Position numbers and translations under genes: made by a program | Shown: piece after piece, positions 7,713 to 64,000 of the stretch | Layout: every line of letters begins with the position of its first letter | How positions within the stretch are numbered: the stretch's first letter is position 1 | DNA from: Brassica napus | Taxonomy: Eukaryota; Streptophyta; Magnoliopsida; Brassicales; Brassicaceae | NCBI RefSeq assembly: GCF_020379485.1 | Contig: NC_063451.1 | Span: 24,844,630-24,908,629 of the forward strand | Length of the DNA: 64,000 bases | Reading direction: 5' to 3' | The notes under the pieces: model-generated | Told to the model about the DNA's origin: nothing | What the model saw: the letters and a program-made list of their open reading frames with translations, nothing else | The model's database searches: none

Positions 7713-9026
7713 CTAGAGCTTTATAGGCTCGACCAAGGACTCTCTAACAGTCATAAAATGACATAAGGAAAGAAATAAAACCGAAATAATAAACTTGGAA
7801 GCAAAGGAATTGATGGCTCCTTGAAAACTAGCCGTTGGAGGCTTAATGATGAGAATCTTGGCCAAATGAATGTAGATGGTGTCCTCCTTATATCTGGACG
7901 GTTTGAGGGGGTAAGTGAGCTTCCTGGGAATCTTCTTAATGGTCTGGAAGGTGCTTATGTCGTGCATAGACTGAAGGAAAAAGAGCTGTTGGAGTTTTAA
8001 TGCTTGAGACTCCAAATAAGGCAGTTTGGTGATAATGGGGATCTTCTTATTCCTATGTGGGCTGGTGCATGGGATGAAGTTGTAGAACTATTCTGGCTCG
8101 TGTATAATGTCTCCTGGATGTCTTGGTTTTTTCTGGACGTCGTCTGGTTCTCCTGGTTGGATTGGAATTTCTTGGAAAGGATCAAACCGAAAGATTGTCC
8201 AATCTTTCCATAAATAGCTCCGGTTGGGTTTAAGTGATTCTCCATTGAACCAACTGATCTCCTGGGTTCTGGTGCAGCAAAGGACTTCTGGAATACCTCC
8301 TGATTGGTTAAGATGATCTCCTGGTTCCCATAAATAGCTCTGGGTCGAACCAAGTTGAATTGGTTGGAGACTTTCCATAGATGACGTCGGTTTGGCCGGT
8401 TCTGGGGAATTGATCATAACTCCTAATTTCCGTGGCCATTTCTCCTGATCTTGGGCTTTCTGGAAAGCTGCTAAACTCCTCTTGACTCCTATGATGGGCT
8501 TTGCTTCAGGCCGCTCCTTAATTGAGCTTGAATCTTCTTCTAAAGTCGGGTACTCGCAGATGGACGGGTTGAGAAATCTCTGAATTGTAAAATTCATAAC
8601 TTCTTGCTCCGTGAATATATTGGCCCAATTCCAATTGGACTGGACTCCGTATTGAGTGTAGAATCCATAGAAATTAGACTCGTGATTTAAACCCTCCTGG
8701 TTTGTAAGATATGGCATTTTTAGTGCACGTATATCCTGGTTGGCGCCTTGGCTGGTTGAGTAGGGTGTTGGGTCGACCTCTGGTTCAGCTGCTGAATTGC
8801 TGGCTACAACATTCCCTCCCCCTTGAAAAGGTTTCGACTTCGAAACTTTATAACCTTGGTTTGATACTATGATCACTGGTTTTGGTTTATTAAGCAACTT
8901 TGATTGTTTTGTGCTTTGAGCTTCCTTCTGGTCCGTGGGAAGGCTTGTGCTTGGCGTCTCTTCTTCTATGTACCTAGGCTCCTTTAGACCTGTAATAACA
9001 CTCTTGGACAAAGACAAGTGCATCAT
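7713..9026 (-). CDS. Second ORF of LTR-A, entering the 3' LTR (one stop)
   Basis: The ATG at 9026 opens a frame that crosses the polypurine tract (the FQGGGN codons) and continues into the LTR. A TAG at 8088-8090 interrupts it and the frame then continues to 7713. In the right LTR the same codon is GAG, so the stop is a single substitution. The protein has no recognised domain. It is rich in Gln, Pro, Ser and Trp, with related phrases such as NRSYLWK and QSYLWE. Coding sequence in an LTR is unusual; it may be a capsid-accessory product or selected for RNA structure. Confidence 0.5.
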
Positions 9027-10793: not shown

Positions 10794-11275
10794 TGTTGCA
10801 GGCTGGAAATCAGGGATGGCAAAATGGTTGATGGAAGCTCGATGGATCGACCAAAGATATGATCGGATGGGCGATAGGATGGAATGCAAGTTATGATCCT
10901 GAAAACAAATGCAAAAACAAATGAGATATGATTTCTAATATGATAAAACAAGATAAATAAAAATAGATAGGATGGAATTAGGCTGCTGGTCGTGTGACAC
11001 TCTCAGCCTAATCAGTTGATGATTGAAGTGGATTGAGATGGTGCTTTGCTTGCTGGATGTGTATCACTCTCAAGCTTGGCAAACGAATTGGAATGGAAGG
11101 ATAGGGGGGTTGAGGACGCCACAAGACTCTATGGAAAGGAGCCTTGATAAGTCAAGGTGCTTTAGAGTTGCTTCACACAAGCTCAAAAGACTTAGAACAA
11201 TAGTTTTAAGAAAACTAGAAAACTGAATAATTCTTATTACTTTCAAAAATGGGGTGCTTTACAATGAAACAAAGA

Positions 11276-12280
11276 CTAGAGCTTTATAGGCTCGACCAAG
11301 GACTCTCTAACAGTCATAAAATGACATAAGGAAAGAAATAAAACCGAAATAATAAACTTGGAAGCAAAGGAATTGATGGCTCCTTGAAAACTAGCCGTTG
11401 GAGGCTTAATGATGAGAATCTTGGCCAAATGAATGTAGATGGTGTCCTCCTTATATCTGGACGGTTTGAGGGGGTAAGTGAGCTTCCTGGGAATCTTCTT
11501 AATGGTCTGGAAGGTGCTGATGTCGTGCATAGACTGAAGGAAAAAGAGCTGTTGGAGTTTTAATGCTTGAGACTCCAAATAAGGCAGTTTGGTGATAATG
11601 GGGATCTTCTTATTCCTATGTGGGCTGGTGCATGGGATGAAGTTGTAGAACTCTTCTGGCTCGTGTATAATTTCTCCTGGATGTCTTGGTTTTGTCTGGA
11701 CGTCGTCTGGTTCTCCTGGTTGGATTGGAATTGCTTGGAAAGGATCAAACCGAAAGATTGTCCAATCTTTCCATAAATAGCTCCGGTTGGGTTTAAGTGA
11801 TTCTCCATTGAACCAACTGATCTCCTGGGTTCTGGTGCAGAAAAGGACTTCTGGAATACCTCCTGATTGGTTAAGATGATCTCCTGGTTCCCATAAATAG
11901 CTCTGGGTCGAACCAAGTTGAATTGGTTGGAGACTTTCCATAGATGACGTTGGTTTGGCCGGTTCTGGGGAATTGATCATAACTCCTAATTTCCGTGGCC
12001 ATTTCTCCTGATCTTGGGCTTTCTGGAAAGCTGCTAAACTCCTCTTGACTCCTATGATGGGCTTTGCTTCAGGCCGCTCCTTAATTGAGCTTGAATCTTC
12101 TTCTAAAGTCGGGTACTCGCAGATGGACGGGTTGAGAAACCTCTGAATTGTAAAATTCATAACTTCTTTCTCCGTGAATATATTGGGCCAATTCCAATTG
12201 GACTGGACTCCTTCTTGAGTGTAGAATCCATAGAAATTAGACTCGTGATTTAAAACCTCCTGGGTTATAAGATATGGCAT
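11276..12280 (-). CDS. 334-codon uninterrupted ORF inside the right LTR of LTR-A
   Basis: This is the LTR-resident part of the second LTR-A ORF in uninterrupted form; the left LTR has GAG changed to TAG at the matching codon. It contains TFTEKEVMNF-like and EYPTLEEDSSSIKERPEAKP segments and ends HFMTVRESLVEPIKL. No family is recognised. In the right (5') LTR it would lie around the promoter and not be translated as such. Because LTRs are copied from one template, the open copy probably reflects the source element. Confidence 0.5.
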   Translation of the reverse strand: MPYLITQEVLNHESNFYGFYTQEGVQSNWNWPNIFTEKEVMNFTIQRFLNPSICEYPTLEEDSSSIKERPEAKPIIGVKRSLAAFQKAQDQEKWPRKLGVMINSPEPAKPTSSMESLQPIQLGSTQSYLWEPGDHLNQSGGIPEVLFCTRTQEISWFNGESLKPNRSYLWKDWTIFRFDPFQAIPIQPGEPDDVQTKPRHPGEIIHEPEEFYNFIPCTSPHRNKKIPIITKLPYLESQALKLQQLFFLQSMHDISTFQTIKKIPRKLTYPLKPSRYKEDTIYIHLAKILIIKPPTASFQGAINSFASKFIISVLFLSLCHFMTVRESLVEPIKL

Positions 12281-12822
12281 TTTTAGTGCACGTATATCCT
12301 GGTTGGCGCCTTGGCTGGTTGAGTAGGGTGTTGGGTCGACCTCTGGTTCAGCTGCTGAATTGCTGGCTACAACAATTATTTATTGGTCGGCCGAGCCGCC
12401 TTATATCCCGTTTATTATTTATTGGTCGGCTGAGCCGCCTTATATTCTGTTTATTATTAATTGGTCGGCCGAGCCGCCGTATAATTTATTTATTATTCTG
12501 CATTGATCGGCTGAGCCGTCGCATGATTTGTTGTCATATAACATAAATATTTCATTGTCATAATTTTTCACTTTTATGAAATTTTATAGATTTGATTGAC
12601 CGTTTAATACGATATTTTCGGACTAATTTTTGGTGCACTCGATTTAACCCCAACGGTCACAAAGAAATTTTTTCAAAAATTTCACCTTTCTCCAACGGTC
12701 ATGAACAGTAATTTTCATCTATAAATACAACTCATTTTCACTCCATTTCATCATCCAAAACATTTCATCTTCTCTCAAAAAAATTTCAAATCGCTCTCCT
12801 CCGATTTTTCATTTCAAGAAAG

Positions 12823-33831: not shown

Positions 33832-34744
33832 TGATGTTAAGAGTTTTCAAGGCTCCTAAAACAAATGTTGTAGTATAGTGATTGTCGAACCAGTTCTGAG
33901 GGATATTAAAGCACCGAGAATGCAAGTACTCACTTAATCTAAGTGCAACCGATAATTTAAGAGGCTTTTAAACTAATGATTAATGATAAATGAAATGACT
34001 TTCTTTACTAAGGGAAAAGAGAACTCATGGGTATAGGGATTAGACCTTGGGTGATCAAGTTTCGAACTAAAGATGGCAAACGATCAATCAAACTATCAAC
34101 CTTAAGCCTAGACACAATTCTAAGCAACCTCTATGTCTAGATGAATGCTCATTTGCTAACATATCTCAAACATCAAATGTCTTTAGTTGAATAATGTGAA
34201 AGCATTCATTACTAACAAGTCTATTAGCTATCTTAGCATCTTTAACAACAAATGTCTTTGGCAAAGTATACTAAAAGCCTAGGAGAGTTGTCTCAGACAT
34301 TTCATCAAACACCTTTTGGGTGAGAAATGCCTATTGATCAACTTTTGAGTGGCCAACTCAGAAGATGCATTATGAATACTCTATTAGCAAGGAACAAGAA
34401 TGATCTACACTAAAACATCCTAGAACTAACCTAATCACCCTTAATCTCCCTAACCCATGAATTCAAAAGGTGATTACTCACTAATCTCCATGATTCCTCT
34501 TAAACCCATATTGGAATTCAGATTAATCATGTAGAGGAATAGATAAGAAATCAACAAGAACACAAGATCAAAGCAATGAAATCTCAAACAAAAGGAGTTT
34601 TACTAATCGTTCTCCCCCAAAAGAGATCCTCTGCCTCGTGGCTACAAAAGGTACTTAAAACATAGGTTTTTAGAAGTAAAAATGTGCGTAATGAAATGAC
34701 CAAAAGGCCTTTGAGAAATCATGAATTCGCCCAAACAAATAAAC

Positions 34745-35125
34745 GCGGAGCGACCTCGGCACGTCGCTGCGAGAGGTCGCTCCCGGGTCGTTTCTTCGCG
34801 AGCGACCTGGCTGTGTCGCTCCGAAGACTTCGCTCCCGGGTCGTCTCCTCGCGAGCGACCTGGCTGTGTCGCTCTGAAGACGTCGCTCCGGGGTCATCTC
34901 CTCGCGAGCGACCTGGCTGTGTCGCTCTGAGGACGTCGCTCCGGGCTTCGTCGGGTGTCGTCTCGCCATGGAAACGCGAGCGACCTTGGATCGTCGCTCT
35001 GGCAAGTCGCTCTGGGAGGGGTGTCTCGCGATAGAAACGCGAGCAACCTCTCTACGTCGCTCTGGCAAGGTCGCTCCGGGATGTGAGCCACAACGACTTC
35101 ATGTAGTAGCTCCTGGAAGTCGCTC
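34745..35125. repeat. GC-rich 53-bp tandem repeats in the left LTR of LTR-B
   Basis: Three main units start with GAGCGAC at 34800, 34853 and 34906 (53-bp period). Each carries two inverted partners of the type GTCGCTC, 15 and about 29 bp downstream. Looser units continue on both sides. The same block is at 40333-40713 in the other LTR. It is far more GC-rich than the surrounding LTR. Confidence 0.85.
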
Positions 35126-35332
35126 CAGGCAGTGCTCATCCAAAGATCACTTTAATCACCTCCCTTGAGCTCCAAATTTATCCAAATGTCTCCAGGAACT
35201 CCATGTGGTACTTCAATACCTAATAGAGACATATGTATGCAAAATGCAACCTAGACATGGCTAAATCCTAATCTATATAATGAAAATGCACATGAATAAA
35301 TGGATAAAACAATGTGAATATGCAAGATATCA

Positions 35333-36893
35333 ACTCCCCCAAACTTATTCTTTTACTTGTCCTCAAGTGAACTTTCTAGAACTCATAGGGAGAGAGGTTT
35401 GAAGGTGGGAGCTCATAGCCAAAAGAAACACACAAAGCACTCAAATCAACATCTAAATTCAGCATTAGTACACCCTCTCTTATTATACTCTAGCTTCTCT
35501 AGGCCTATTCAACTCTTTTCATCCCTACACTCATCATCATGCATTCACACATGCAAATCAGCCAACTCTCAAGTTCATTAAGCATAACATCAAGTGAATT
35601 CTTGCAAATGGTCAATCGGTCCAAATCATTTGGTTGAGTAAGGGAAGGCTTTTATTCAAGTGGGTCAAGAGGTTCAAAATCCATGATCTTTTAAAGTGGT
35701 TTACTCTCAGAACAAGTAGCCTTGACATTGCACATAATATATCTAAGAAAGAGACCAACTCATGCATACAATGCTCAATCTCCATTGTTCTACCCTTTTC
35801 CCAAACATACAGGTTACACAATCACTTCCCAATGTCAAACCCAACTCCCATCTCTCACCAAAAGATCCCAAGAATACTTTGCACATAAAACTCTTTTTCT
35901 TTGAAATCTATAAAGGATTTTCTCAACTTCTAAACAAATCTTAGCTCTAAACAACTTTGCTAGCCCCTTTTTTCTTTCTTTTTCTCTTTTTTTTTTCGGG
36001 GGCCAAGACTTTTCATAAGCTCGAGCTAGACGTTTATCTATTAATTCCAATAAGATTATCCATTTAAACACAAAGAGTCTATTCTTTTCCTTTGAACTTT
36101 TCATGCTTCCAAACCATAGTCACCACACTCACCCCCACCTATAGCTAGACAATAGAGTGCCTAATCTAGCAAAAATGAAGACCAAGCATTGTCGTTCCCG
36201 ATACTCTCAACATTATGCACATGTAAGGCTTTCCGAAAAAGACCTCACTCATCAAATAATAAAAGCTTAAAAGGAGGAAGGGATTTTGGGAATGGTGTAC
36301 CACTAGAGTTTGACAAAAAAGATTGGCATAAAGGATGTGACAACTCAAGTGTGTATATCCATGATTCAGTACACAAGAGACCATGAGCAAGATGCATTAA
36401 GTTCGTTCAGTTCAAATAAGGTTGTAGTTGGCTTCAAAGACTGAGTTTCAGCAGTCAACAAGTTTCAGGAAGAGTTTTCAAGGCTCGAAGCATACAAGCC
36501 TTTTTGAGAGGTGCATAAGCTACTCAGGTGCAAAGTAGTGTTCTTTACAAGGCATTTCAAATCATTGCTCCCAATGCAAGTAAATGCATCCTATATGCTC
36601 TAGACTCTCCTAGAAATGCAAATGATGCAAACTAAATGATTTTTTATGCAAATATATATGTATAATGCAATGCATGAGACTCAAAATCATCAAAGCAAAC
36701 GTGATCAAATACTTGGTACCTCCCCCACACTTAAATGACACAGTCTCTGTGTTGTCAAGGAGAGAGAGATACCCAAAAAGAGAAAAACTAATATGCAAAA
36801 ACGAAATGGTATATACAAGGGAAAGTAGTGGGTTACCTTCTATGGGGAATGAGTAGAGGGAGATGCTCCCTCCTCGTCGTCCTCAGGTGGTAA
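35333..36893 (-). other. LTR-B 3' noncoding region (where pol is absent)
   Basis: About 1.56 kb between the protease stop and the 3' LTR without retrotransposon enzymes. It contains the terminal polypurine tract and, near 36719-36752, an internal TCCCCCACACTTAAATGACA stretch followed by an ACACAG-TCT-CTGTGT hairpin. Short frames here are not protein-like. Confidence 0.6.
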
Positions 36894-39290: not shown

Positions 39291-40332
39291 ACACCTGAAA
39301 GTGAAAGGTAGGTGAAGAAGATGAATCAGTAACAAAACAAAATTAAAATGACTTAGTCTCAAGCAAGTGACTAAATCTCAATGTTTAAATCTACTCAGAA
39401 TTTGGCAACGACGCCAATTTGATGTTAAGAGTTTTCAAGGCTCCTAAAACAAATGTTGTAGTTTAGTGATTGTCGAACCAGTTCTGAGGGATATTAAAGC
39501 ACCGAGAATGCAAGTACTCACTTAATCTAAGTGCAACCGATAATTTAAGAGGCTTTTAAACTAATGATTAATGATAAATGAAATGACTTTCTTTACTAAG
39601 GGAAAAGAGAACTCATGGGTATAAGGATTAGACCTTGGGTGATCAAGTTTCGAACTAAGGATGGCAAACGATCAATCAAACTATCAACCTTAAGCCTAGA
39701 CACAATTCTAAGCAACCTCTATGTCTAGATGAATGCTCATTTGCTAACATATCTCAAACATCAAATGTCTTTGGTTGAATAATGTGAAAGCAATCATTAC
39801 TAACAAGTCTATTAGCTATCTTAGCATCTTTAACAACAAATGTTTTTGGCAAAGTATACTGAAAGCCTAGGAGAGTTGTCTCAGGCATTTCATCAAACAC
39901 CTTTTGGGTGGGAAATGCATGTTGATCAACTTTTGAGTGGCCAACTCAGAAGATGCATTATGAATACTCTACTAGCAAGGAACAAGAATGATCTACACTA
40001 AAACATCCTAGAACTAACCTAATCACCCTTAATCTCCCTAACCCATGAATTCAAAAGGTGATTACTCACTAATCTCCATTATTCCTCTTAAACCCATATT
40101 GGAATTCAGATTAATCATGTAGAGGAATAGATAAGAAATCAACAAGAACACAAGATCAAAGCAATGAAATCTCAAACAAAAGGAGTTTTACTAATCGTTC
40201 TCCCCCAAAAGAGATCCTCTGCCTCGTGGCTACAAAAGGTACTTAAAACATAGGTTTTTAGAAGTAAAAACGTGCGTAATAAAATGACCAAAAGGCCCTT
40301 GAGAAATCATGAATTCTCCCAAACAAATAGAC

Positions 40333-40713
40333 GCGGAGCGACCTCGGCACGTCGCTGCGAGAGGTCGCTCCCGGGTCGTTTCTTCGCGAGCGACCTGGCT
40401 GTGTCGCTCCGAAGATGTCGCTCCCGGGTCGTCTCCTCGCGACCGACCTGGCTGTGTCGCTCTGAAGACGTCGCTCCGGGGTCATCTCCTCGCGAGCGAC
40501 CTGGCTGTGTCGCTCTGAGAACGTCGCTCCGGGCTTCGTCGGGTGTCGTCTCGCCATGGAAACGCGAGCGACCTTGGATCGTCGCTCTGGCAAGTCGCTC
40601 TGGGAGGGGTGTCTCGCGATAGAAACGCGAGCAACCTCTCTACGTTGCTCTGGCAAGGTCGCTCCGGGATGTGTGCCACAGCGACTTCATGTAGTAGCTC
40701 CGGGAAGTCGCTC
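40333..40713. repeat. GC-rich 53-bp tandem repeats in the right LTR of LTR-B
   Basis: Second copy of the GAGCGAC / GTCGCTC array, nearly the same as at 34745-35125, with a few substitutions such as GACCGAC for GAGCGAC near 40441-40446. Confidence 0.85.
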
Positions 40714-41372
40714 CAGGCAGTGCTCGTCCAAAGATCACTCTAATCACCTCCCTTGAGCTCCAAATGTATCCAAATGTCTCTAGGAACTCCATGTGGTACT
40801 TCAATACCTAATATAGACATATGTATGCAAAATGCAACCTAGACATGGCTAAATCCTAATCTATATAATGAAAATGCACATGAATAAATGGATAAAACAA
40901 TGTGAATATGCAAGATATCAACTAGAACAGGCTGATCGTACAATCTGGAATAGTTGAGGCGTACAGAAACTTGCAGAGATCAGTCCACAGATCGATCTTG
41001 TTGAGATCAGTGGCCGAATACAGATCAGGGTCATGATCAAAGAGAGGTGATCGATAGAGATTAGGGTTTTAGCAATAGAGAGATATTTAGGGTTTATGTT
41101 TGATATTTAGCTTAGGGTTTTAGCGATCAATCGTGCTGATAACGTGTTGTGAAAGTAATAGAAAAGTCTATCTTTATTCATAACATAGAGGTTCCTTATA
41201 TAGGAGATTACACCGTCATAGATAAATGGAAAGAGTACAAATCATATTCCAACTAGGAAAAAGGAAAACATAAAGACATAAGGAAAATGAAAAGCTGGCC
41301 GACTCTCTCTTTCTTGGGCCGCAGATGGTATAATCTCTTGGTTATGAGTCATCCACAATCTGGTTCATAACA

Positions 41373-51485: not shown

Positions 51486-52309
51486 ATAAGCTGTTGCATA
51501 TATATTTACATATAGAGTGATTATTTATATATATACTTTACATTTTAGCTTAAGCTCTCATTCTGAGATTGTTAATCATAAATATATTCACGATATCATG
51601 AAGTTTATTATTGTATGACATGTTGATAACTTGACATGTATGTTTTTATGTATTTTATGCGCTACAAATAATCGCACAGTTCATAGGTTCCTTTCTCTAG
51701 TATTAGCATTGGAGAGTCTGCGAGTTTTAATTGAATGGATGCACTTTAAAAGTTCCACTAGTACAACTACCAGTAGAACTCATTTAATAATTTGGGTATC
51801 AAGAGAACATGACGTAAGGTGCATGAAGTTGCGAATTTACCATTTCAACTGTTTGTAAATAAATCCACACTAGCATAAATCCCTACACGGTTCGCAGAGC
51901 AGAACATGTATTCTGATCTTTGATTTATTTCTACCGAAGATTGGAAATGAACTCTGGTAAATATTCGATGATCTAACGTAGCTAAATTACATATCTTATA
52001 ATACAAAGAAGAATATTATTCTTTTCTCTTCTTGCCACCTCATCAAATAGGGCAAAGAGGTGGTGACATCTGTCCCACTATTTTGTTTTGTTGAGAAAGA
52101 CATTGAATCACATTTGAGCTTTTGGTTTCGTTGGAGAGTTTTGCTACCCTTAAGAGTGTCCACGTCTACAGGTATTCATTTAGTGGGCCCCATTTAGATA
52201 ATAAATATTTATGCTTTCGACGTTACTTTTGACCAATGTATTATTTGCGTATGCTTTGAACATAATGTTTGCCTTTTCAGATTCTTGATCTCCAATCGTT
52301 AGGTTATCG
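51486..52309 (-). repeat. 824-bp dispersed repeat, copy 2
   Basis: Reverse-complement copy of 25458-26281. It joins exactly to the interrupted gag of the truncated Athila copy at about 52310. Confidence 0.85.
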
Positions 52310-52311
52310 TC

Positions 52312-52677
52312 TCCTGGTATTTTAATAGCGGACCTATTGGAATAGGTTCTACCAGGGTCTAGGTAGTTTTGCAAAGGCAATCTTATCTCTTCACCTTTTA
52401 TCAAGGTGGGATTTATCTTAACAGGGATTTCAGTCCCCTGTTTAGTTTGGCTAGTCTCATTGCTCAATTGACCTATTGGTTCAGTTTGGACTACTTCCTC
52501 ACTAATAAACTCGGTAAGAGAAGACTTACCTGCTTCCGGCTGGGCGGTGTCGATCGATATCGGGAGCTCCGTGTCAGTCGATTCTTCGGTCTCCACGTCG
52601 CTCGATAACATTACATCTTCATCGATCGATGCTCGGCCGAGTTCTATGTTCTCTATTCTTAGTGTATGCATAGACAT
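52312..52677 (-). pseudogene. Truncated gag N-terminus of a second Athila-like copy
   Basis: From ATG 52677 it follows the same protein as the gag at 63271, up to NRSAIKIPGDD. It then breaks into unrelated codons from the 824-bp repeat. The 8-residue repeats SIDEDVML / SSDVETEE / STDTELPI / SIDTAQPE are encoded by a 24-bp-spaced TCGATCGA array. It lies upstream of the shared LTR, so it is the start of another element lost to the left. Confidence 0.85.
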
Positions 52678-52739
52678 GGAAAGAAAGAAAACTTAGCAAG
52701 TTTTTCGTACCAAGTCTGTACTAAATTCTAAATTAAAAT

Positions 52740-54057
52740 TGATATCATTCAAATTACCCTAAGGAGTGAATTACTCTCTCAAATAAGAGGTTCAGATGCA
52801 GTACTTAGGGATCGAATCCACAAGGACTCTAGGATTAATCAACAAATTTAAGGGATTAGAAATAAAGATAGACTAAGAGGTTTAATTGTTTAAAATCAGT
52901 AAATGATAAGTCGAACAAGACAATTGTTCGGCGGTTTAAGTTGAAGTTTTTTTAAGGATGGGAAAACAGCTAGACTTAGGCAAATTCTCAGGTATGAAAA
53001 GCATGCAACTTAGTTCAGACTTAAAGGGTAATTTTGAACTCAAACAATGGCAAAACCAGATAGGTTTTCATTACTAGATCTAGGATCTCAACTGTCGTCT
53101 TTTGATCTCGAGAAAGAGTCGATTGATGTGACTTTATGCACATCGTTCGATACACATTTCAAACAATCGATCGACACAACGATAGTCGCGTCGATCGACG
53201 GTTCTTCTAGCAAGCTTTGCGAGCGGGTTTGAAGTTGTTCTCTAACCTTCTAGACCAACTCTCGTTGTTATCTAGTCAGTTAGATCACGCTGGCTATTTC
53301 AGGTATTGAGGGTAACGGTTGGTTATCTCAATTAATCCTAAGATCTAAAATGAGGGTGATCAATCTTAATTTTAGCATTAAGCTCAACAAGCATGAAAGA
53401 ACAATCAAAACACCTTTTTAACAGTCTTATTAGCAGCACATACTTTCAACCTTTATGAGAAACCTAAATCTAACAATTGGGTTTACTCAGACATATTCAT
53501 GAGAGACAAAGTCATGATGGTTTGAATAAAACTCAAATGAAATATTGAACACAGAAAGTAAGAGTAATAGAAATAAAGGAGTTCAAGATCTTCTCTGTTA
53601 TGCAGTCTCAGATCTATCTCTCCAATCCTAAGCTCTTCTAATGGTAGCCAAAATGCTTCTTCTCCAGACTAGGTCTTTTGGCCAGTCTGCCTCAAAAATG
53701 ATACAAAACCCTTGTGCATATAGCCTCACTGACGGCTAAGGGCTTAGGTTGCAATTAATAAACTTTATGGGAATGAAGTCTTCTAATTTCGTGATTAATC
53801 CTCGAGTGATTCAATATCGATCGATGACGCTGAACGGCTGTCGATCGATTTTAATTGGCTCCAGTCGATCGATATTGCTCTTCAGCATCGATCGATTCTC
53901 TACGCGTAAAAGTACTCCAAAGTGTCCCAAAAGCATCATTTCCTTCTATCAAGTAACTGAACCTGTAATTGCTTTGAAAAGACTCTAAAACATGATAAAT
54001 ATATCTTAAAACACTTATATACCAAGACTAAAAATGGGTGAAATCCATGGTATATCA
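52740..54057 (-). mobile_element. Athila-like LTR, shared by two copies (1318 bp)
   Basis: TGATATCATTC...GGTATATCA, with TGATAT/ATATCA ends. It is the 3' LTR of the long element to the right (polypurine CCTAGGGGAGT, complement of about 54058-54068) and the 5' LTR of the truncated copy to the left. It contains two 24-bp-spaced TCGATCGA arrays (53119-53198 and 53817-53895). Confidence 0.85.
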
Positions 54058-55353
54058 ACTCCCCTAGGTTTAAAACATAGAAGCCATCACCTCTACAATA
54101 TCGCATTCCACATCTAAAAGGTCCTAATCACAAAAGCACATTATGCAATATCCTAGCTTAGCAACCAAATTAATCTAGCCAACAACTTTGCAAATCTTAT
54201 CTGGCATTCCTCTTGACCAACCTCGTTTCTTAGCATAAATAAAAGTGCATGCTTTACCTTGGGAGTATCAATCACAAGATTCAAAGATTTTCAAACAAGT
54301 ATCTGGATCTGCAGGTAAATGTTAGTTCCTATCTTTTCTCTCTACTAATTTCTCTCTTTAGTCAAAGTCTGCTTATATTGCAAGATCAATAACCAAGATT
54401 GGACAGGCTTTCATGAATCAAAACTTAATGGTGGTTGCCACCAAGTCTTGTTCACTTCTTTTTGACCTATATCCAAGAATTCATATGAATCGAGCCTTGA
54501 AGATTGCCGCCACCAAGTCCCGTTCGAATTCTTTTTGTTGGAATCCTTATGAAGCAAGCCTTAATGGTTGTAGCCACCAAGTCCTGTTCGGATTCCACCT
54601 AACTAACACCTATTATATATATATTTTAAAATAAATATCTCTACCTATAAATCTAGGGTCGAAATAGAGAGAGAAAAGGTGATAAATATACACAAGGATT
54701 TACCTTCCAGACTTGTTTGAAGAATCCGATCCCATGTATACCAAAGCCCCAAGACAAGTAGTTGTGTCAGGTTTAGTGTTGGAGGTTAGCTTTGGTTCTT
54801 TCAAACAAGCTAGGCAAGTGTGTATAGTTGACAGGTTGATCCACTTTAGCATCTTTAGTACTATCTGCAATCAGTAAATCTAGAATGGTGCTAAAAAGTG
54901 GTTAGACTTTCAAGTAAAAATCATAAGTTCATAGTCTCCTTCTTTACTCAATAAAATTATTTTTGAAAAGATTTTGACAAAACTCAAGAAGATGGTGTTA
55001 GTACTACCTCCCCCAGACTTAAATTACACCGTCTCGGTGTAAAGTGTCCAAAGGTGGTGATAAGCAAAGTTAGATGTTTGAGATGTTAGATCCAAGTGTC
55101 GTACCTCTCTGTCCCGCACATCGATTGATACCATCCTTTCCGTGTCGATCGATGGCGAGAAACAGAAAATTCTGCGTCATGTCTAGAATCAAACTCATAT
55201 AATCTGTCAGTGTGGTTAGCTCTGTCTGACACTCTAAACATAAGAAATAAGTAAACAGTCTCAAACATAAAGCATAGATATGTCTTAAATATAAATCCTG
55301 CAAGTTCGAAAAAAAAAACAAGTTCATAAGGGAAAGAGATAGAAATGAGAGGA
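54058..55353 (-). other. Athila-like 3' noncoding region
   Basis: No enzyme genes. Three imperfect repeats carry GCCACCAAGTCYYGTTC (about 54437, 54509 and 54573). An internal CTCCCCCAGACTTAAATTACA (about 55009-55028) precedes a hairpin ACACCG-TCT-CGGTGT (55026-55040). Two TCGATYGA sites, 24 bp apart, are at 55121 and 55145. Confidence 0.6.
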
Positions 55354-56700
55354 CTAGTCGGTGTCCTCGCTGGTCTCGTCGTCGCTCCCAGACGAAGGAT
55401 CCCTGCATTGCCTAGAAGGTCCCCCTGCTGCTGGTGAATTAGCTCTGATGGTCCTCCTGCTCGTGCAAGATACTCGAGCCCAGATTGCACGAAGAACATC
55501 CACAACTACCCTCTGAAAGTCTCCCTGATCGCGCAAAGGGATGTCTGGTATGATCGGGAAATCAGGAAGAGGTGCCTCCGGTGGTCCCTGTGTAGCTCTG
55601 GCTCGACGCACTCCCGGAGGTCTGCGCGGGATAGCCGGAAGATCGCAGAGCAGCTGGGAATCGGGCATGAACCGGAGCCCATCGATCTTGTCATCGAAGT
55701 CTGTGATCATCATGTTCGGCATCGACAGTAGACGGTGCTGGTTCCCGATCCTAAAACTCCATAGAAGTTCCTCCTTGAGCCAACCTGAGTTCATCAGGTG
55801 TTGCTCGTCCAAGAAGCGGTGGGAGCGGTCGGCTGTGCGCGGATCTAGGCGGATGCCAAGATACTCAAAGATCGGTGTCAGCAAACTCCCAACCGTCTCC
55901 TTCTTCCTTCCTTTGCCCGTGAAGGGCTTCTTCTTCAGGTCCACCAAGTGTGCAGCAAAAATGGCTCCGAGGTTTGGAGTTATCACGTCGTCGTTCTCAT
56001 CGAGATGAGTCAGGTTCACCAAGCCGTTTACTCCACAGAAGAGTAGTGTAAGCTCCTATATCCTGACCTTGTTGGGCTCCATCTTGCAAACCAACGTGTT
56101 TGCAAGAGCCCGTAGAAAGTACCGGAGGGTGGGGTGACGGATGTCTGCCTGCGTAGCGGAGGTGGAGCCCCCCCCCCCGTGCCGATTATCTCCCAGAATC
56201 CGTTGAGGCCTAGGAAGGGTGGAATCTTGCTCGCAGCTGCATCCTCCTGGAAACCGTAGATGCGGCAGAGCTCGGGGATGGAGATCCTGTATCGAATTCC
56301 CCTGGCCAAAAAGGTCAGTGTACCATCTCCTGCTACCCTCGCCTTCGAGGTGAGTGGCCATGGTGCCAAGTCCGAGCGGCGTGATCATCTCCCTGATGTC
56401 TGTCTCGATCCGGAGCTTCCGTAAGATGTATGGGTCGATAAACCGTGTGGGCTTGATAGAGACGCCAAGCCAAGCATTGTAGAACAAGCTGTCGTAGTCA
56501 TCCCACTCGTCCTTGAGCACACGGTTGATGCACTCCTTGCTGTTGACCGCTTACTTCGGGTCAGCGAAATCCTCGAATGTGTCGATGGGTGTTTTGTCGT
56601 CACGAGGCCAAGGGTCGCGGTGCTGTATGGAGGTGCTAGCTTCGTCGTATCTCCTCTTCGTCCTCCTCTCACATCTTTCTGCATCTGCGTCTGAGCTCAT
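55354..56700 (-). pseudogene. env-like ORF (ATHILA ORF-1 family)
   Basis: Starts MSSDADAERCERRTKRRYDE at ATG 56700, directly after a strong acceptor TTTTTTCTGTTTGTTTTCAG. Further blocks: DEWDDYDSLFYNAWLGVSIK, DIREMITPLGLGTMATHLEG, then, in other frames, MVNLTHLDENDDVITPNLGA and FEYLGIRLDPRTADRSHRF. It ends DDETSEDTD. A TAA near 56549 and at least two frameshifts (one at the C-run around 56168-56178) disable it. The place after integrase is where Athila elements carry the env-like gene. No signal peptide or membrane segment is evident in what remains. Confidence 0.75.
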
Positions 56701-57464
56701 CTGAAAACAAACAGAAAAAAGAGTAGAAGTGAGATAGTGTTGTCGATATAGAAATCGATCGATGAAGTATGTGAGATATCGGTCGATATATGTCGTTAAG
56801 AATTAGTCGACAATAAGGGTATCGATCGACGCTATACAGTTCGCGTCGATCGATGTCGAATCGCGAAACCTGCAAAGATCACTCAATTCCAAATCGCACT
56901 TTCAAAGCATTAACAGCATAAAATCCACAATCCTAACACTAGATAATCGTTAGAAACTCCAAAACCATCCAAAATCCGCGCCTAATCATAAGTTCTAGTT
57001 CATTTCAAAACTCAACTCTAAAAATTCCTAACAAAAGAGAATTTCGAAGTCAAACCTTGTAGATCGGGTGAGTGAATGAACTAAACAGATAGAGAATGAA
57101 AAATCGAGTGGATTAGGGCGAGAAACGGAGGAATTCCGTGAAGAATCGGGAGAGAAAAGAGAGGTTTTGATTTCGTTAGGGTTTTGCGAATGAGAGGAGA
57201 GAGAAGCGGATATCGAGTTAAATGAGGTTAACCCTCGATATGTCCGCATCGATCGATGGCAAGACAGCTACATCGATCGATATTTTTTCAAATAAACTAC
57301 TCCTGATTTCTATTACTCCTAATATTTTACTAATAATAAGATATAAATATAAATATAGATATAAATATAGATATAAATAAAAATATAATTAATTTTTTTT
57401 TTTTGAACAGAAAATGGGTTGCCTCCCATTCAGCGCTTAAATTTTAAAGTCTTTAGCTCGACTT
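56701..57464 (-). other. Spacer between integrase and env-like ORF
   Basis: Noncoding. It carries TCGATCGA-type sites at 56755, 56779 (TCGGTCGA), 56803 (TTAGTCGA), 56822, 56846, 57249 and 57273. A (TAAATA)n-like run lies at 57330-57385. GGGTTGCCTCCCATTCAGCG (57418-57437), a phrase typical of this element type, is at the border. Confidence 0.6.
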
Positions 57465-58886
57465 CCTGAATAAACTGTTATCAGGGGGTTCTAGAATAAT
57501 GGGCTGATTTGCTGGCGGATTGGCCCAATAATGTTTCACTCGTTGGCCGTTCACTGTAAACTCATCACCTTTATCACTTTTTGGAGTTATGGCTCCCGAG
57601 GGTTTTACGTCTGTTACTGTGAATGGTCTGGACCAACGAGATTTAAGCTTTCCAGGAAATAGCGTTAGCCGAGAATTATAGAAAAGGACTTGATCATCCG
57701 GTTCAAAGTGTCGGGATAAGATCTTCTTATCGTGGTACGCTTTAGTCTTTTCTTTATATAGTTTCGAATTCTCATAGGCTAAATGTCTGATTTCATCAAG
57801 CTCGTTAAGCTGGATGAGTCTCCTTTCAGCAGCAGGGTTTATATCAAAATTAAGAAGTTTAGTGGCCTAAGCTGCTTTATGCTCCAGTTTGACTGGTAAA
57901 TGACAGGATTTGCCATAAAGGAGGTGGAATGGTGTTGTTCCCAACGGTGTCTTATAGGCGGTCCTATAGGTCCAAAGTGGATTATCTAGTTTCCTAGACC
58001 AATCCTTTCTGGAAATTCTTACAGTTTTCTCTAGAATTTTTTTGATTTGCCGATTAGAGACTTATACCTGTCCACTAGTTTGTGGGTGGTAGGGCGTAGC
58101 TACTCTATGCTGAACACCGTTCTTTTTAAGCAATCCATCCAAGACCTTATTGATGAAATGGGTTCCACCGTCACTAATGACTATTCTAGGAACTCCAAAT
58201 CGCGGAAAGATTATGCTCTTGAAAAGCTTAATAACTACAGATGCGTCATTGGTTGGGGAAGCTATTGCTTCAACCCATTTGGATATGTAGTCTACATCGA
58301 CTAGTATATACTTGTTTCCGTATGAGGATGGGAAAGGACCCATGAAATCTATCCCCCAGCAATCAAAGACTTATACTTCCAAAATGAACTTCTGTTCCAT
58401 TTCGTGTCTTTTGCTGATTTTTCCTCGTCTTTGGCATCTGTCACATTGTGTTATAAATGCATGGACATCGCGAAATGTCGTCGGCCACCAGAATCCTGCT
58501 TGAAGGATTTTGGAAACCGTTTTGTAGGTGGCAAAATTTCCTGCATAGTCAGATCCATGACATTGGTATATAATGTCCGGAATTTCAGCTTCGGATACGC
58601 ATCGTCTGTATATTCCGTCAGAGCAATGCCTATAGAGGTATGGTTCATCCCAATGATATCTTCTAACTTCTCTGAAGAATTTCTTCCTCATATACCCCTT
58701 GAGTTCTTCAGGCTCGACTTCGGCTGCCAAATAGTTGACTATATCAGCATACCAGGGTCGATCTTTCGAGTTCCTACCAATTGCGTGCACCTCTTGTTGC
58801 GATTCTTCATCAGGTGTGAGATTTATCTTATCACCAGCAACATTAACCTTTATGTCAATAATTATTTTATAGACGAGGTGCTGTGA
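57465..58886 (-). pseudogene. Athila-like integrase
   Basis: Zinc-binding part CHGSDYAGNFATYK ... CDRCQRRG, where the second His is Asn. The catalytic core has [12 protein letters not shown] (Asp) and ISDGGTHF (Asp); at the third acidic residue, [12 protein letters not shown] is replaced by TAA (58062-58064). Another stop is at 58371-58373. The C-terminal part continues [20 protein letters not shown] to about 57465, in the same frame. A frameshift near 58865-58890 separates it from RNase H. It would have joined the cDNA to the chromosome, but is catalytically dead. Confidence 0.85.
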
Positions 58887-60910
58887 TTGTGGTTACTAGG
58901 GAATCGAGGCGTTGCGATACTGTCGTTATCGATCGACGTATCACTTCTGGAATCGATCAATATGTTCTCTTTCGCATCGATCGATGTCTCATCGGAAGTG
59001 AGAAATATTTGACCTACGAAAGATGTATCCATTTTTGCAACGTTCTCTGTTGGGAAGAAATCGTCTATAGGGACGTTATCCTCTATTCTGATTCGAGAAA
59101 GATGGTCAGCGACTCCATTATCTACTCCTCCTTTATCTTTAATTTCAATATCAAACTCTTGGAGTAGTAAAATCCAGCGTATGAGTCGAGGTTTTGCATC
59201 TTTCTTTTGCATCAAATATTTAATGGCAGCGTGGTCAGTGTGAACTATCACACGTGTGCCAATTAGATACTGACGGAATTTTTCAAATGCATAAACTACG
59301 GCGAGTTGTTCTTTTTCTGTTGTTGCATAATTCAGTTGCGCTTCATCAAGCGTATGACTGGCGTAGTAGATGGCATGCAGCTTTTTATCTTTTCTTTGGC
59401 CCAAAACTGCTCCTATCGCAAAATCATTCGCATCGCACATGATCTCGAAAGGGAGATTCCAGTCGGGGGCTTGAACGACGGGGGCAGTTATAAGGGATTT
59501 TTTTAAATCTTTGAAAGCTTTCATGCATTCTGGGGTAAAGTCGAACTTTACTTCCTTGCACAAGAGGTTATTTAAAGGTCTAGCAATTTAGCTAAAGTCT
59601 TGTATAAACCTCCTATAAAATCCGGCGTGTCCGAGAAAACTTCGCACGTCTTTTACATTTTTGGGTTCTGGTAGACCGGTCATCACTTCGATTTTAGCTC
59701 TATCTACCTCTATACCAGCGGCGGAAACCTTATGTCCTAATACGATGCCATCGCTAACCATAAAATGGCATTTTTCCCAATTTAGGACAAGGTTCTTTTC
59801 TTCGCATCTTTCCAAGACATTGCATAAATTATCGAGGCAACTCTTAAAATTTGATCCGTAGACCGAAAAGTCATCCATAAAGACTTCCATAAAGTCCTCG
59901 ATCATGTCTGTAAAAATTGACATCATGCAACGTTGGAAAGTGGTGGGAGCATTACAAAGACCAAATGCCATTCTGCGATACACAAATGTTCCATAGAGGC
60001 ATGTAAATGTTGTCTTTTCTTGATCATCCGAATGTATGGGAATTTGAAAAAATCCTGAATATCCATTGAGAAAACAGTAATACTGGTGATTGGCTAAACG
60101 CTCCAGCATTTGATCAATAAAGGGCAGGGGAAAGTGATCTTTCCTAGTAGCGGCATTTAATTTCCTATAGTCGATACTCATCCGATGTCCAATGACGGTA
60201 CGAGTCGGGATGAGTTCATCGTTTTCGTTCTTCACTACTGTAATACCTCCCTTTTTGGGTACAACATGTACGGGGCTTACCCATTTACTATCCGAAATAG
60301 GATAGATAACTCCAGCATCTAGGAGTTTAATAATTTCCTTTTTGACTACTTCCTTTAGATTCCGATTTAATCTCCTTTCCTGTTCTATCGACGTTTTTGC
60401 GTCGTCTTCCAAATGAATACGGTGCATGCAAAGATCAGGAGAAATTCCAGGAATATCATCGAGAGAATACCCGATTGCTTTCCTGTACTTGCGTAGTTTA
60501 TTTAATAATAACGCAAGTTCTCCGCTAGTGAGGTTGGCGTTGACAATAACAGGGTAGGATTGGTCATAAAGAAATGCATATTTAAGACCACTGGGGAGGG
60601 GTTTCAATTCAACCTTTGGTGCTTTGTCTTTAGACCAATTAGATAGTGAAGATTGTTGTCGATCAACGGCCTCTTTGAGATATCGATCGGCGATAATGTC
60701 TGAGTCATCATCTTCTTCGACGTTCGCAACCTCGATACTTGCATCCATCAGTCGCACGTAATCGTCTGTCCTATTATCTATGCTGAAAATTTCCGTTTCC
60801 ATATGGGTAAGAGCATTTTCTAAGGGGTCGTCTGAGCACATGTCTATGAAAGATCCCTTATCCAGCTCAGAAACTTCTTCCACATAGAAGTCTTGGTCAT
60901 CTATCAAGGG
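58862..60910 (-). pseudogene. Athila-like reverse transcriptase and RNase H
   Basis: RT (about 60907-59588) has WVSPVHVVPKKGGITVVKNE, RMSIDYRKLNAATRKDHFPL, AFGLCNAPTTFQRCMM and the FMDDFSVYGS active site. A TAA at 59588-59590 follows, with the frame resuming to RNase [53 protein letters not shown] spacer with SIDAKENI / LIDSRSDT / SIDNDSIA follows, encoded by a 24-bp-spaced TCGATCGA array (58929, 58953, 58977). The N-terminal linker holds ADRYLKEA / VDRQQSSL from another array (60659, 60683). Motifs are intact but nonsense codons block the polyprotein. Confidence 0.88.
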
Positions 60911-61951
60911 TCACTTGATTAGGTTTTCCATATCAAAGGTCATCGAGATGTCCCCGATGTTCAAATTTATTCGTCCTTCTTTCACATCAATGATCACTCC
61001 AGCTGTAGTTAGGAATGGCCGACCCAGAATGAGGGGGTCTTTTGGTTCCTGTCTGTATTTTAACACAACAAAATCTGTAGGCACGAAACAATTATTAATT
61101 TTTACGGGAACGTCTTCGAGAATCCCTTCAGGTACCCTGATAGACCGATCAGCTAGAACCAAGGTTATCAGAGTTGACATAAACTCGTTATATCCCAAGG
61201 TTACTGCAACGGAGTAAGGCGTAAGATTTACGCTAGAGCCAAGATCACATAGTGATCGAGGAAAACGTGTGTTCTGTATATTGCAATCTAGGACGAAACT
61301 ACCAGGATCAGGCCTCTTAGTTGAAGTTTCTCCATGAATCATGGCACTTACTTCCTCTGACACCATCATCACGCTTTGTTCCGCAGTTGGATAATTTGGA
61401 GACGTCATATCCTTCACATAATTCTTTATCGAAGGTGCTATTTTCATAGCATAACTAAGGGACATTTCCACAGTAATTCTATCCAATGCTTTCTTGCAGA
61501 TCACCTTTTCTAATGATTTCTTAGTCTGCGTTTTAGGAGGAAAAGGGGGTAGGGTTCTATAGACTCTTTCAATCGTTGGTTCGGGTTGAGTAGAACGTCG
61601 ATCGATAGGGTTATCTGAATGTTGATTGACGACAGGATTCACCAGTCGATCGACGTGGTTACCATACTGTCGATCGATTTCGGCCTCAATTTCCGAATCG
61701 TCTTCTACTTCTAAGTCTATAGTCTTTTCCTCATTTTTTTCAGCGGTAGACTTCCTGTTTTCGCGAGAAGGTTTTGGGTCAGGGTCATCAAGAAGTGTAG
61801 GCTGAGAATTGCTCTTGCCTGTTTCATCAGCATTGGCAGAATTGCCAATTTCGGTGTTGTTCTTCGTGTTTGTCGCGAGATGTTTTCCGCTACGCAACAT
61901 TACGGCACTGACTTGACGTCTCGAGTTTAAATCAGTTCTCCCGGGAAGACG
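60911..61951 (-). pseudogene. Athila-like protease region
   Basis: The linker includes MLRSGKHLATNTKNN and four 8-residue units IDRQYGNH / VDRLVNPV / VNQHSDNP / IDRRSTQP, coded by sites at 61598-61677. The protease follows with CDLGSSVNLTPYSVAVTLGY (active-site DLGSS), LVLADRSIRVPEG and LILGRPFL. A TGA at 60911-60913 separates it from RT in the same frame, and a TGA at 61952-61954 from gag. It would have processed Gag-Pol. Confidence 0.85.
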
Positions 61952-63271
61952 TCATGTTTCTCTTTTAATGGCAGTCGCAATTTCAGCTACTTGACTTTCT
62001 AATTTTCGGAAAAGTTCACTCAAAGAATCTGCTTTCTCCATTAACTTTCCGTAAACCATATTTATTTTTCCGTAAAAATCTGACTTTGTTTTATGGTTGC
62101 CAGTAAGTGCTTGTCTGATATTGAACTTTTCCTTTCCAGTGCGTGATTTCACAGCAATGTGATAGGCTTGGGTGAAACTATCAATGTTAAACACGGGATA
62201 GGGGTCTGAATAGCTTGTCTCTTCTTCTAATTGATTTTTCATATCAGACAAGACATCATTTTCGATCTAGGCTGTATCAGATCGGTGTTGATTATGAAGA
62301 AAAGAGTGGAGCGAATTGAGGGAATTTTTGATCTCTACCAAATCTGAATTATCTTCTGAATTTAACAAATTTCCTATTTCTTCATCCATCTTTTCATAGG
62401 ATTTTCCCGCTGCTACATTTTCGATAAGGCGTCTAGCATCTCCGGGACTCCTAGTTACGAAATTTCCTTCACTCGCCGTGTCAAGTGTAGTTTTGTAGCT
62501 CAAGTTAACACCTCCATAGAAGATGTTTAGGAGTTGTGGTTCTGAATAACCATGGTGGGGACATTCAAGTTCATAGCTCCTGAATCTTCCCCATGCGTTT
62601 TTAAACGATTCAGGTGGATCTTGGCGGAATGTAAAGATTTGTCTCCTTACTTCCCAATAGCGATCATCATCGAAAAATTTCTTAAGGAAGGCGTTTCTAA
62701 TCTCTTCCCAACAAGTAAGGGATCATGTTGCTAAACAGTTTAGCCATCTGAGAGCTTCTCCCTCTAGGGAAAATGAGAATAGTTTGTAACGATTGTATTC
62801 GTCTGGGATTAATTCTTCCAAACCTTCGATGTGATCTTGCGGGTGCTCAGAGAGAGATCCACAGAATGGGTTTCGACGAACCATACAGTAGTAATCTGCG
62901 TTGAACTTAGATTTCTTGGTATCATCTCCTGGTATTTTAATAGCGGACCTATTGGAATAGGTTCTACCAGGGTCTAGGTAGTCTTGCAAAGGAAATCTTA
63001 TCTCTTCACCTTTTATCAAGGTGGGATTTATCTTAACAGGGATTTCAGTCCCCTGTTTAGTTTGGCTAGTCTCATTGCTCAATTGACCTATTTGTTCAGT
63101 TTGGACTACTTCCTTACTAATAAGCTCGGTAAGAGAAGACTTACCTGCTTCCGGCTGGGTGGTGTCGATCGATGTCGGGAGCTCCGTGTCAGTCGATTCT
63201 TCGGTCTCTACGTCGCTCGATAACATTACATCTTCGTCGATCGATGCTCGGCCGAGTTCTATGTTCTCCAT
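61952..63271 (-). pseudogene. Athila-like Gag
   Basis: ATG at 63271. The N-terminus has four 8-residue repeats from a TCGATCGA array. The capsid follows: NPFCGSLSEHPQDHIEGLEE, LFSFSLEGEALRWLNCL, then TGA at 62723, CWEEIRNAFLKKFFDDDRYW, CPHHGYSEPQLLNIFYGGVN, then TAG at 62267. It ends IATAIKRET before a TGA at 61952. All parts are in one frame, so the copy decayed by point mutations. Gag would form the particle. Confidence 0.87.
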
Positions 63272-63354
63272 TCTTAGTGTCTGCGTAGACAGGGAAAGAA
63301 ATAAAACTTAGCAAGTTTTTCGTAAAAAGTCTATACTAAATTCTAAATTAAATT

Positions 63355-64000
63355 TGATATCATTCAAATTACCCTAAGGAGTGAATTACTCTCTCAAATA
63401 AGAGGTTCAGATGCAGTACTTAGGGATCGAATCCACAAGGACTCTAGGATTAATCAACAGATCTAAGGGATTAGAAATAAAGATGGAGTAAGAGGTTTAA
63501 TTGTTTAAAAGCAGTGAATGATAAGTCGAACAAGACAATTGTTCAGCGGTTTATGTTGAAGTTGTTTTAAGGATGGAAAAACCGCTAGACTTAGGCAAAT
63601 TCTCAGGTATGAAAAGCATGAAACTTAGTTCAGACTTAAAGGGTTTGACGGTTTTAGACCTCAAACAATGGCAAAACCAGATAGGTTTTCATTACTAGAT
63701 CTCAGATCTTAACTATCGTCTTTTGATCTCGAGAAAGAGTCGATCGATGTGACTTTATGCACATCGTTCGATACACGTTTCAAACAATCGATCGATACAA
63801 CGATAGTCGCGTTGATCGACGGTTCTTCTAGCAAGCTTTGCGAGCGGGTTTGAAGTTGTTCTCTAACCTTCTAGACCAACTCTCGTTGTTATCTAGTCAG
63901 TTAGATCACGCTGGCTATTTCAGGTATTGAGGGTAACGGTTGGTTATCTCAATTAATCCTAAGATCTTAAATGAGGGTGATAAATTTTAATTTTAGCATT
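63355..64000 (-). mobile_element. Athila-like 5' LTR (cut by the window end)
   Basis: TGATATCATTCAAATTACCC matches 52740 onwards. It includes the first TCGATCGA array (63740, 63764, 63788, 63812), corresponding to 53119-53198. The other end lies outside the window. Confidence 0.85.

Follow-up and report, generated by a model that had tools for sequence, protein, structure and literature searches.

Arrays of a short palindrome at a 24-bp pitch along Athila-like retrotransposons of Brassica napus

The window analysed here, a stretch of 64,000 nucleotides from Brassica napus (contig NC_063451.1, positions 24,844,630 to 24,908,629), carries at its high end an Athila-like retrotransposon of the gypsy type, along which the 8-bp palindrome TCGATCGA recurs in clusters of sites 24 bp apart. 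The same spacing was found throughout the genome, and the sites revealed conservation as DNA even where they lie inside genes. They are probably recognition sites for a protein, a reading that is weighed below against its alternatives.

The element and its arrays

The element displays features of the Athila lineage, namely the gypsy order of reverse transcriptase (RT), RNase H and integrase with a protease before the RT (placed via homologues with PF13650), and an ATHILA ORF-1 (PF03078; ORF, open reading frame) after the integrase. The ORF-1 gene is broken; one of its pieces matched PF03078 at 3.5e-05 and the other two stayed under the curated cut-off, while all five close relatives of ORF-1 lay above it; pieces and relatives also matched PF20167, though weakly. 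The low end of the 3' long terminal repeat (LTR) and the polypurine tract were found, the 5' LTR runs beyond the window, and primer-site words gave no match. The following parts were identified, all on the minus strand:

52740..55006, minus strand: 3' LTR, approximate; its low end (TGATATCA) comes from a comparison with two further loci, L007 and L045, its high end only from the adjacent polypurine tract
55007-55014, minus strand: polypurine tract
55354..56520, minus strand: broken ATHILA ORF-1 gene in the env position (pieces 55354-56022, 56028-56369 and 56056-56520)
58371..58790, minus strand: integrase zinc-binding ORF piece (PF17921, 3.1e-12)
58862..59563, minus strand: RNase H ORF (PF17917, 3.5e-37)
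59588..60907, minus strand: RT ORF (PF00078, 3.1e-26)
60911..61900, minus strand: gag-protease linker and protease ORF, without a Pfam match of its own; PF13650, an aspartic protease domain, is present in some homologues
62723..63271, minus strand: piece of a gag ORF, a name based on its place in the element and on its match to gag ORFs with arrays; no Pfam match

Eleven places along this order hold arrays, most of those in coding parts being given with the peptide that they spell on the minus strand:

52550..52629: four sites (52550, 52574, 52598, 52622) within the ORF of the second, flanking copy of gag; S-I-D or S-x-D
53119..53198: four sites (53119, 53143, 53167, 53191) at a first position in the 3' LTR; counterpart array in the LTR of L007
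53817..53895: four sites at a second position in the 3' LTR, steps 24, 24 and 23 bp; counterpart array in L007
55121..55152: two sites between the ORF-1 gene and the polypurine tract; four sites near the matching place in L007
56755..56853: cluster of five sites in the stretch from integrase to ORF-1, not within any ORF found, steps 24, 24, 19 and 24 bp
57249..57280: two sites, likewise in the stretch from integrase to ORF-1 and not within any ORF found
58929..58984: three sites in the RNase H-integrase coding linker; S-I-D
60659..60690: two sites in the pol linker before the RT; x-D-R
61598..61677: four sites in the gag-protease linker; [IV]-D-R
63165..63244: four sites in the main element's gag; homologue of the array at 52550-52629
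63740..63819: four sites in the 5' LTR, which runs past the window end; homologous to 53119-53198

No site with at most one mismatch lies inside the ORF-1 gene of the window, and arrays stand on either side of it. A run of 11 C was seen in this broken gene at 56168-56178, where open frames of two phases overlap. Comparison of the ORF-1 relative P0251 with solved structures returned 11 weak matches, the best of them (E 0.1) to antibody chains, and these were judged to be due to chance. Beyond the 3' LTR, a second gag copy (gag and leader, 52305-52740, matching 62920-63355) produces the order LTR-internal-LTR-internal, as if left by recombination between two elements sharing an LTR.

Spacing, form and conservation of the sites

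The initial annotation had listed 38 sites, and each of them was recovered at its position as TCGATCGA or a variant of it: 23 are exact, 11 have one mismatch, three have two (52574, 63189 and 61622) and one has three (56803). Its description of a fixed 8-bp palindrome is thus slightly overstated. The same 23 are the only exact copies in the whole window, all within 52550-63795. Eight of the 38 sites are not independent, as 52305-53379 and 62920-64000 are homologous (95%), which leaves 30. Within the listed arrays every step is 24 bp, as had been claimed, except for one of 23 bp (53865 to 53888); the neighbouring arrays that end at 56803 and start at 56822 are 19 bp apart.

With up to one mismatch, 52001-64000 contains 36 sites and 18 pairs exactly 24 bp apart, two of the sites (60384 and 62262) being solitary and absent from the earlier list, whereas 30 dinucleotide-preserving shuffles of the same region gave a mean of 6.5 sites and no such pair. 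The most over-represented 8-mers of 52000-64000 were ATCGATCG (30 versus 1.25 expected) and TCGATCGA (23 versus 0.83 expected). As a negative control, the first 52 kb of the window, home to a gypsy gag-protease element and two copia elements (nine ORFs scanned), revealed 14 sites when up to one mismatch was allowed, and no two of them were 24 bp apart. The ratio of observed to expected CpG in 52305-64000 is 0.93 (0.87 without the exact motifs), hardly depleted, and 0.46-0.80 in 8-kb bins of the first 48 kb.

At the scale of the 997-Mb genome, the exact pattern TCGATCGA-N16-TCGATCGA occurs 22,260 times and its reversed control once, while the 16 shorter spacings from 8 to 23 bp pooled gave 4,008 exact pairs and 70 for the reversed control; this comparison covers 8-24 bp, spacings of 25-47 bp lying outside the count. 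Of about 50 places listed for pairs under 24 bp, all but four are at 23 bp. About half of these listed shorter pairs are a 23-bp variant with one single, near-palindromic spacer, TGTACACAAGTACCA (for example at L011, L014 and C1:16304071). In twenty 10-kb loci, fifteen chosen from motif matches (some listed clusters left out) and five by position, pairs with at most one mismatch numbered 134 at 24 bp, 14 at 23 bp and no more than six at each of the remaining distances between 8 and 31 bp; the five loci chosen by position contained no pair at 24 bp. A motif-blind sample was drawn through the RT, taking 20 of 96 scored matches (9,639 candidates) that covered the range of identities, each with 950 bp of flanking sequence at either end. 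All 20 copies displayed 24-bp pairs among their 201 sites, with distances of 24 bp (109 times), 48 bp (55) and 72 bp (23), the next commonest being 4 bp (nine). The lack of any excess at 24 bp, named beforehand as the result that would speak against the arrays, was therefore contradicted both by the other spacings of 8-23 bp and by the motif-blind sample. Among viral contigs, RT patterns led to 12 stretches with no relative, and the exact three-site pattern found no match. Literature searches of open-licence papers, with TCGATCGA, GTCGATCGAC and ATCGATCGAT among the terms, showed no earlier report of these arrays among the papers listed.

The form of the site was derived from 88 arrays, of which a single representative of each similarity group was kept, leaving 59 arrays with 172 sites. 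It is a 12-bp palindrome, YRTCGATCGAYR, a symmetric extension of the 8-bp core, with a pyrimidine (Y), purine (R), Y and R at positions -1, 0, 9 and 10 around the core in 152, 170, 165 and 155 of the 172 sites, respectively. Genome-wide, both cores are preceded by R and followed by Y in 21,029 of the 22,260 pairs (about 6% expected by chance), and in the RT-chosen set position 0 is R in 163 of 163 sites and position 9 is Y in 160. Among the spacer columns shown, the information content is low (0.005-0.19 bits).

That selection acts on the core, as had been suggested, and does so at the level of DNA, is supported by the third codon positions in 19 sequences of the RT-chosen set, the window included and L027 and L029 dropped for foreign inserts. 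Third positions differed in 276 of 3794 comparisons in the cores (7.3%), in 2078 of 3556 in the spacers (58.4%) and in 58094 of 155474 in the other parts of the ORFs (37.4%), the pair comparisons being non-independent. A per-column test, whose units are sites and not sequences, placed the cores below the rest (P=1.4e-9; 24 versus 923 columns) and the spacers above it (P=1.0e-6). When all 8-bp windows of the ORFs are ranked by conservation, those of eight of the nine cores fall in the top 2.4-7.2%, and the one at 61622 only in the top 22%. The window and L007 (78% identical) have arrays at all nine places compared; their cores differ at 17 of 208 positions (8.2%), spacers with 36-bp flanks at 206 of 769 (26.8%) and the rest at 1653 of 9087 (Fisher 1.4e-9 and 7.5e-5). 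The RT-chosen set is the cleaner test, since L007 was found via the motif. Third codon positions kept in this way point to selection on the DNA itself. The arrays span LTRs, non-coding stretches and coding linkers and use all three reading frames, being read as S-I-D, x-D-R or x-R-S, and one 452-residue ORF of L008 contains all three; three frames giving three peptides indicate that the peptides are by-products. Apparent peptide repeats such as SID or VDR in annotated Brassica proteins can accordingly be by-products of DNA sites.

Traces of the arrays were also seen in the proteins of relatives. In 38 of the 120 listed homologues of the protease linker (of 672), [IV]DR recurs with a period of eight residues, and shuffled residues gave no eight-residue pair in 200 rounds; for the RNase H-integrase linker, S-I-D at eight residues was present in five of 120 listed relatives (of 7,933). 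Arrays also accompany gag or protease genes that share only 27-36% identity with those of the window (L008, L012 and L014), so that the system spans diverged families.

Comparison of the coding linkers revealed how the arrays change. In the RNase H-integrase linker, exactly 24 bp are absent from L038 and L041 and exactly 48 bp from L036 and L040, while in the pol linker L042 has one extra 24-bp unit with a similar spacer. Adjacent spacers share 4.57 of 12 letters, compared with 3.14 for random pairs, and next-nearest ones 5.52 (54 and 23 pairs), and in one array of L007 the first and third units are identical. The initial annotation had called the spacers unrelated, which fits most arrays, where they are near random, but not every one; a weak excess of similarity was seen. 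Together, whole-unit insertions and deletions and the likeness of adjacent spacers suggest that the arrays probably arise by tandem duplication. The whole-unit gains and losses in coding linkers constitute a natural record of array turnover.

Two further sets of repeats were noticed in the first 52 kb. The gypsy gag-protease element has repeated ends (33832-35335 and 39420-40923, 98% identical) in which, at 34748-35126 and 40336-40714, the inverted motif GAGCGAC / GTCGCTC lies within 53- and 63-bp tandem repeats, the steps of GTCGCTC being 13-14, 39, 49-53, 58 and 64 bp; this may be another family-specific array, one confined to the LTR. Direct repeats of 1.59 kb (7219-8811 and 10794-12374, 98% identical) each overlap an open frame that exceeds 330 residues and has no Pfam match; the repeats are possibly LTRs with a resident gene.

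Explanations of the arrays

Sites for an oligomeric DNA-binding protein, one of the mechanisms put forward initially, are favoured as the best account. We consider it reasonably probable that the arrays are DNA recognition sites of a dimeric, perhaps cooperative protein, possibly with an anti-silencing role like that of VANC, a protein reported to recognise a short motif present in many copies along VANDAL transposons and to strip them of DNA methylation (PMC5735166). A homodimer would read the palindrome YRTCGATCGAYR on double-stranded DNA, and clusters of two to six sites at a fixed 24-bp pitch suggest contact between neighbouring dimers or their assembly into a short filament. With arrays in LTRs, untranslated stretches and unconstrained coding linkers, the whole element would be tagged. 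The arrays would change in length mostly in whole 24-bp units, which are duplicated or lost, and thereafter the spacers would drift freely while selection at the DNA level keeps the sites. The most likely effect would be a sequence-specific self-recognition that opens or marks the chromatin of the element, in the way VANC acts on its VANDAL targets. The binder may be a product of the element itself or a host protein that it has borrowed; the ORF-1 product is a candidate only by its position, arrays flanking the gene. The motif, its pitch and genome-wide excess, the constraint on DNA and the whole-unit gains and losses are demonstrated here; the binding of a protein, its dimeric and cooperative nature and a benefit to the element are inferred.

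Several observations weigh against this reading. The pitch is not universal, as 5 of the 120 listed protease-linker homologues have a period of seven residues (21 bp); the four named ones, two from Arabidopsis and one each from Capsella and Sinapis, suggest a 21-bp pitch in these relatives, as far as can be judged from the protein. At 24 bp, neighbouring sites are about 2.3 helical turns apart, and the outer letters of the palindrome are weaker in the RT-chosen set (Y in 125 and R in 131 of 163 sites). The protease-linker array lacks 45 bp in L037 and one base in L042, neither of which is a whole unit. The fixed pitch may be partly inherited from duplication and not selected; yet other pitches are rare in the untranslated arrays of the window, where 10 of 12 steps are 24 bp and the remaining two 23 and 19 bp (5' LTR copy uncounted). 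No binder emerged from the analysis, and the predicted structure of ORF-1, built from an alignment of 30 sequences, reached a mean pLDDT (predicted local distance difference test) of 42.8 and was not used for fold searches. DUF1985, a domain of VANC, was not found in Pfam scans of nine window ORFs and five ORF-1 relatives, other proteins of the lineage having been scanned only in part.

The alternative that survives best, though we regard it as unlikely, takes the arrays for sites of a host transcription or silencing factor, being either a captured enhancer array or the target by which the host finds the element. It draws on the same DNA-level evidence as a protein acting for the element, on the arrays beside the gag and protease genes of 27-36% identity, and on the palindromic repeats in the LTRs of Sireviruses, which the accessible text of PMC2829016 compares with transcription-factor sites. 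A promoter enhancer would, however, be expected in the LTR, whereas these arrays are spread along the element and lie inside gag and pol linkers; if the host used them for silencing, the element should shed them, but the sites are instead among the best-kept stretches of the ORFs.

A functionless, decayed 24-bp minisatellite, spread by slippage and with a core surviving by chance or through recent spread, is quite improbable and already hard to hold. The whole-unit gains and losses and the slight likeness of adjacent spacers are what it predicts, and most indels are indeed units of 24 or 48 bp. This part of the decayed-minisatellite test came out in its favour, and the conservation of the core is left unexplained by it: in the same arrays, spacers differ at third positions at eight times the rate of the cores, the cores are conserved although each has two mutable CpG, and the same 12-bp palindrome is common to 59 similarity groups of arrays. 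In an ordinary minisatellite the whole unit, including the spacer, resembles its neighbours, which is not the case in most arrays here.

We give little credence to a signal in RNA, by which the self-complementary cores would serve in packaging or dimerisation or form hairpins in the genomic RNA. The cores can pair with one another, and three of five window arrays look stable when folded and compared with shuffles (z -3.14, -4.81, -0.92, -0.87 and -3.54), as self-complementary cores must. The flanking R and Y, on the other hand, revealed no covariation, neither within a site nor between neighbours: A-C combinations, which are unable to pair, were found within 41 of 172 sites (36 expected from the column totals) and within 4 of 30 sites of the window, and across 118 non-redundant pairs of neighbouring sites there were 19 outer A-C (18.9 expected) and 18 inner C-A combinations (16.8 expected). 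Such independence of R and Y would be expected of two half-sites that are read separately on duplex DNA and not of RNA strands that pair. Packaging signals, in addition, need no repetition along 10 kb. The packaging and dimerisation proposal of the initial annotation is disfavoured on these grounds.

The proposed link to 24-nt small RNAs or RNA-directed DNA methylation, in which the pitch would equal the length of a small interfering RNA, has a very slim chance of being correct, as the agreement is a numerical coincidence, the units share only 8-12 nt, most spacers are unrelated and form the fastest-changing part, and a 21-bp pitch is suggested by the proteins of other genera. Selection on the linker residues S-I-D or [IV]-D-R, to which the eight-residue period in 38 of the 120 listed homologues would be due, was rejected and is effectively refuted by the differing reading frames, three frames giving three peptides together in one ORF, by the arrays in LTRs and untranslated stretches, and by the conserved third positions.

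Returning to a protein acting on the element, a bolder form may be offered tentatively, as we would sooner doubt than accept it. A dimeric protein, probably encoded by the element, would recognise YRTCGATCGAYR as an element-wide address code and assemble along the DNA at a 24-bp pitch, marking all copies of the lineage and lifting silencing or directing cDNA or chromatin; such a code would be strong enough to prevail over the choice of synonymous codons in gag and pol, and would persist while the intervening sequence turns over. Retrotransposons fill plant genomes, and how their families recognise their own copies or escape silencing is known for few cases, the VANC example concerning DNA transposons. 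Tens of thousands of near-identical sites in a fixed geometry provide a handle for fishing out the binder with a four-site probe. If it is encoded by the element, retrotransposons would have their own equivalent of VANC, one that would also offer a means of targeting chromatin by sequence.

Comparison with known systems

TnpA of Spm/En is an element-encoded protein that binds many copies of a short motif; Spm/En is a DNA transposon, TnpA sites are known only from its ends, and their motif is unrelated to the present site. TnpA has been linked with demethylation, according to the accessible text of PMC10398659. The short interrupted repeat cassettes (SIRC) of A. thaliana, some of them in ATHILA, likewise consist of short direct repeats with diverse spacers, but their repeats of 10-29 bp are found per cassette and are thought to be derived from miniature inverted-repeat transposable elements (MITEs), and a common palindrome, a pitch or the tagging of whole elements is not described in the accessible part of PMC10342631. 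The centromere elements of wheat, as far as the available portion of PMC11302176 goes, have no bearing on the arrays.

Sireviruses come closer. Following the accessible text of PMC2829016, they carry short palindromes, 8-32 per element, in their LTRs and in the linker before the env-like gene, with few at the env start, and one of them, Tnd-1 (ACAATCGATTGT), has the centre ATCGAT in common with the present site. The element of the window matches this pattern in having a palindrome repeated in the LTR and before the gene in the env position. Sireviruses, however, are Ty1/copia and not gypsy elements, whereas the window has an RT of PF00078 and an RNase H of PF17917, not RVT_2; their core is mostly CGG-CCG and the present one is TCGATCGA. 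Neither a fixed pitch nor arrays in gag and pol are described in that part of PMC2829016.

In the VANDAL transposons, as set out in the accessible parts of PMC5735166 and PMC10398659, the motif YAGTATTAY is repeated along one transposon family, is required for efficient binding in vitro and forms arrays that evolve by tandem duplication. The present arrays probably evolve in the same manner, most although not all of their indels being whole units. In contrast, VANDALs are DNA transposons, their motif is non-palindromic and their sites lie in non-coding parts; VANC, moreover, carries DUF1985/DUF287, and the ORF-1 proteins scanned here revealed no such domain. VANC is thus the nearest worked example and the Sirevirus palindromes are the nearest resemblance among LTR elements, membership in both failing on the features tested.

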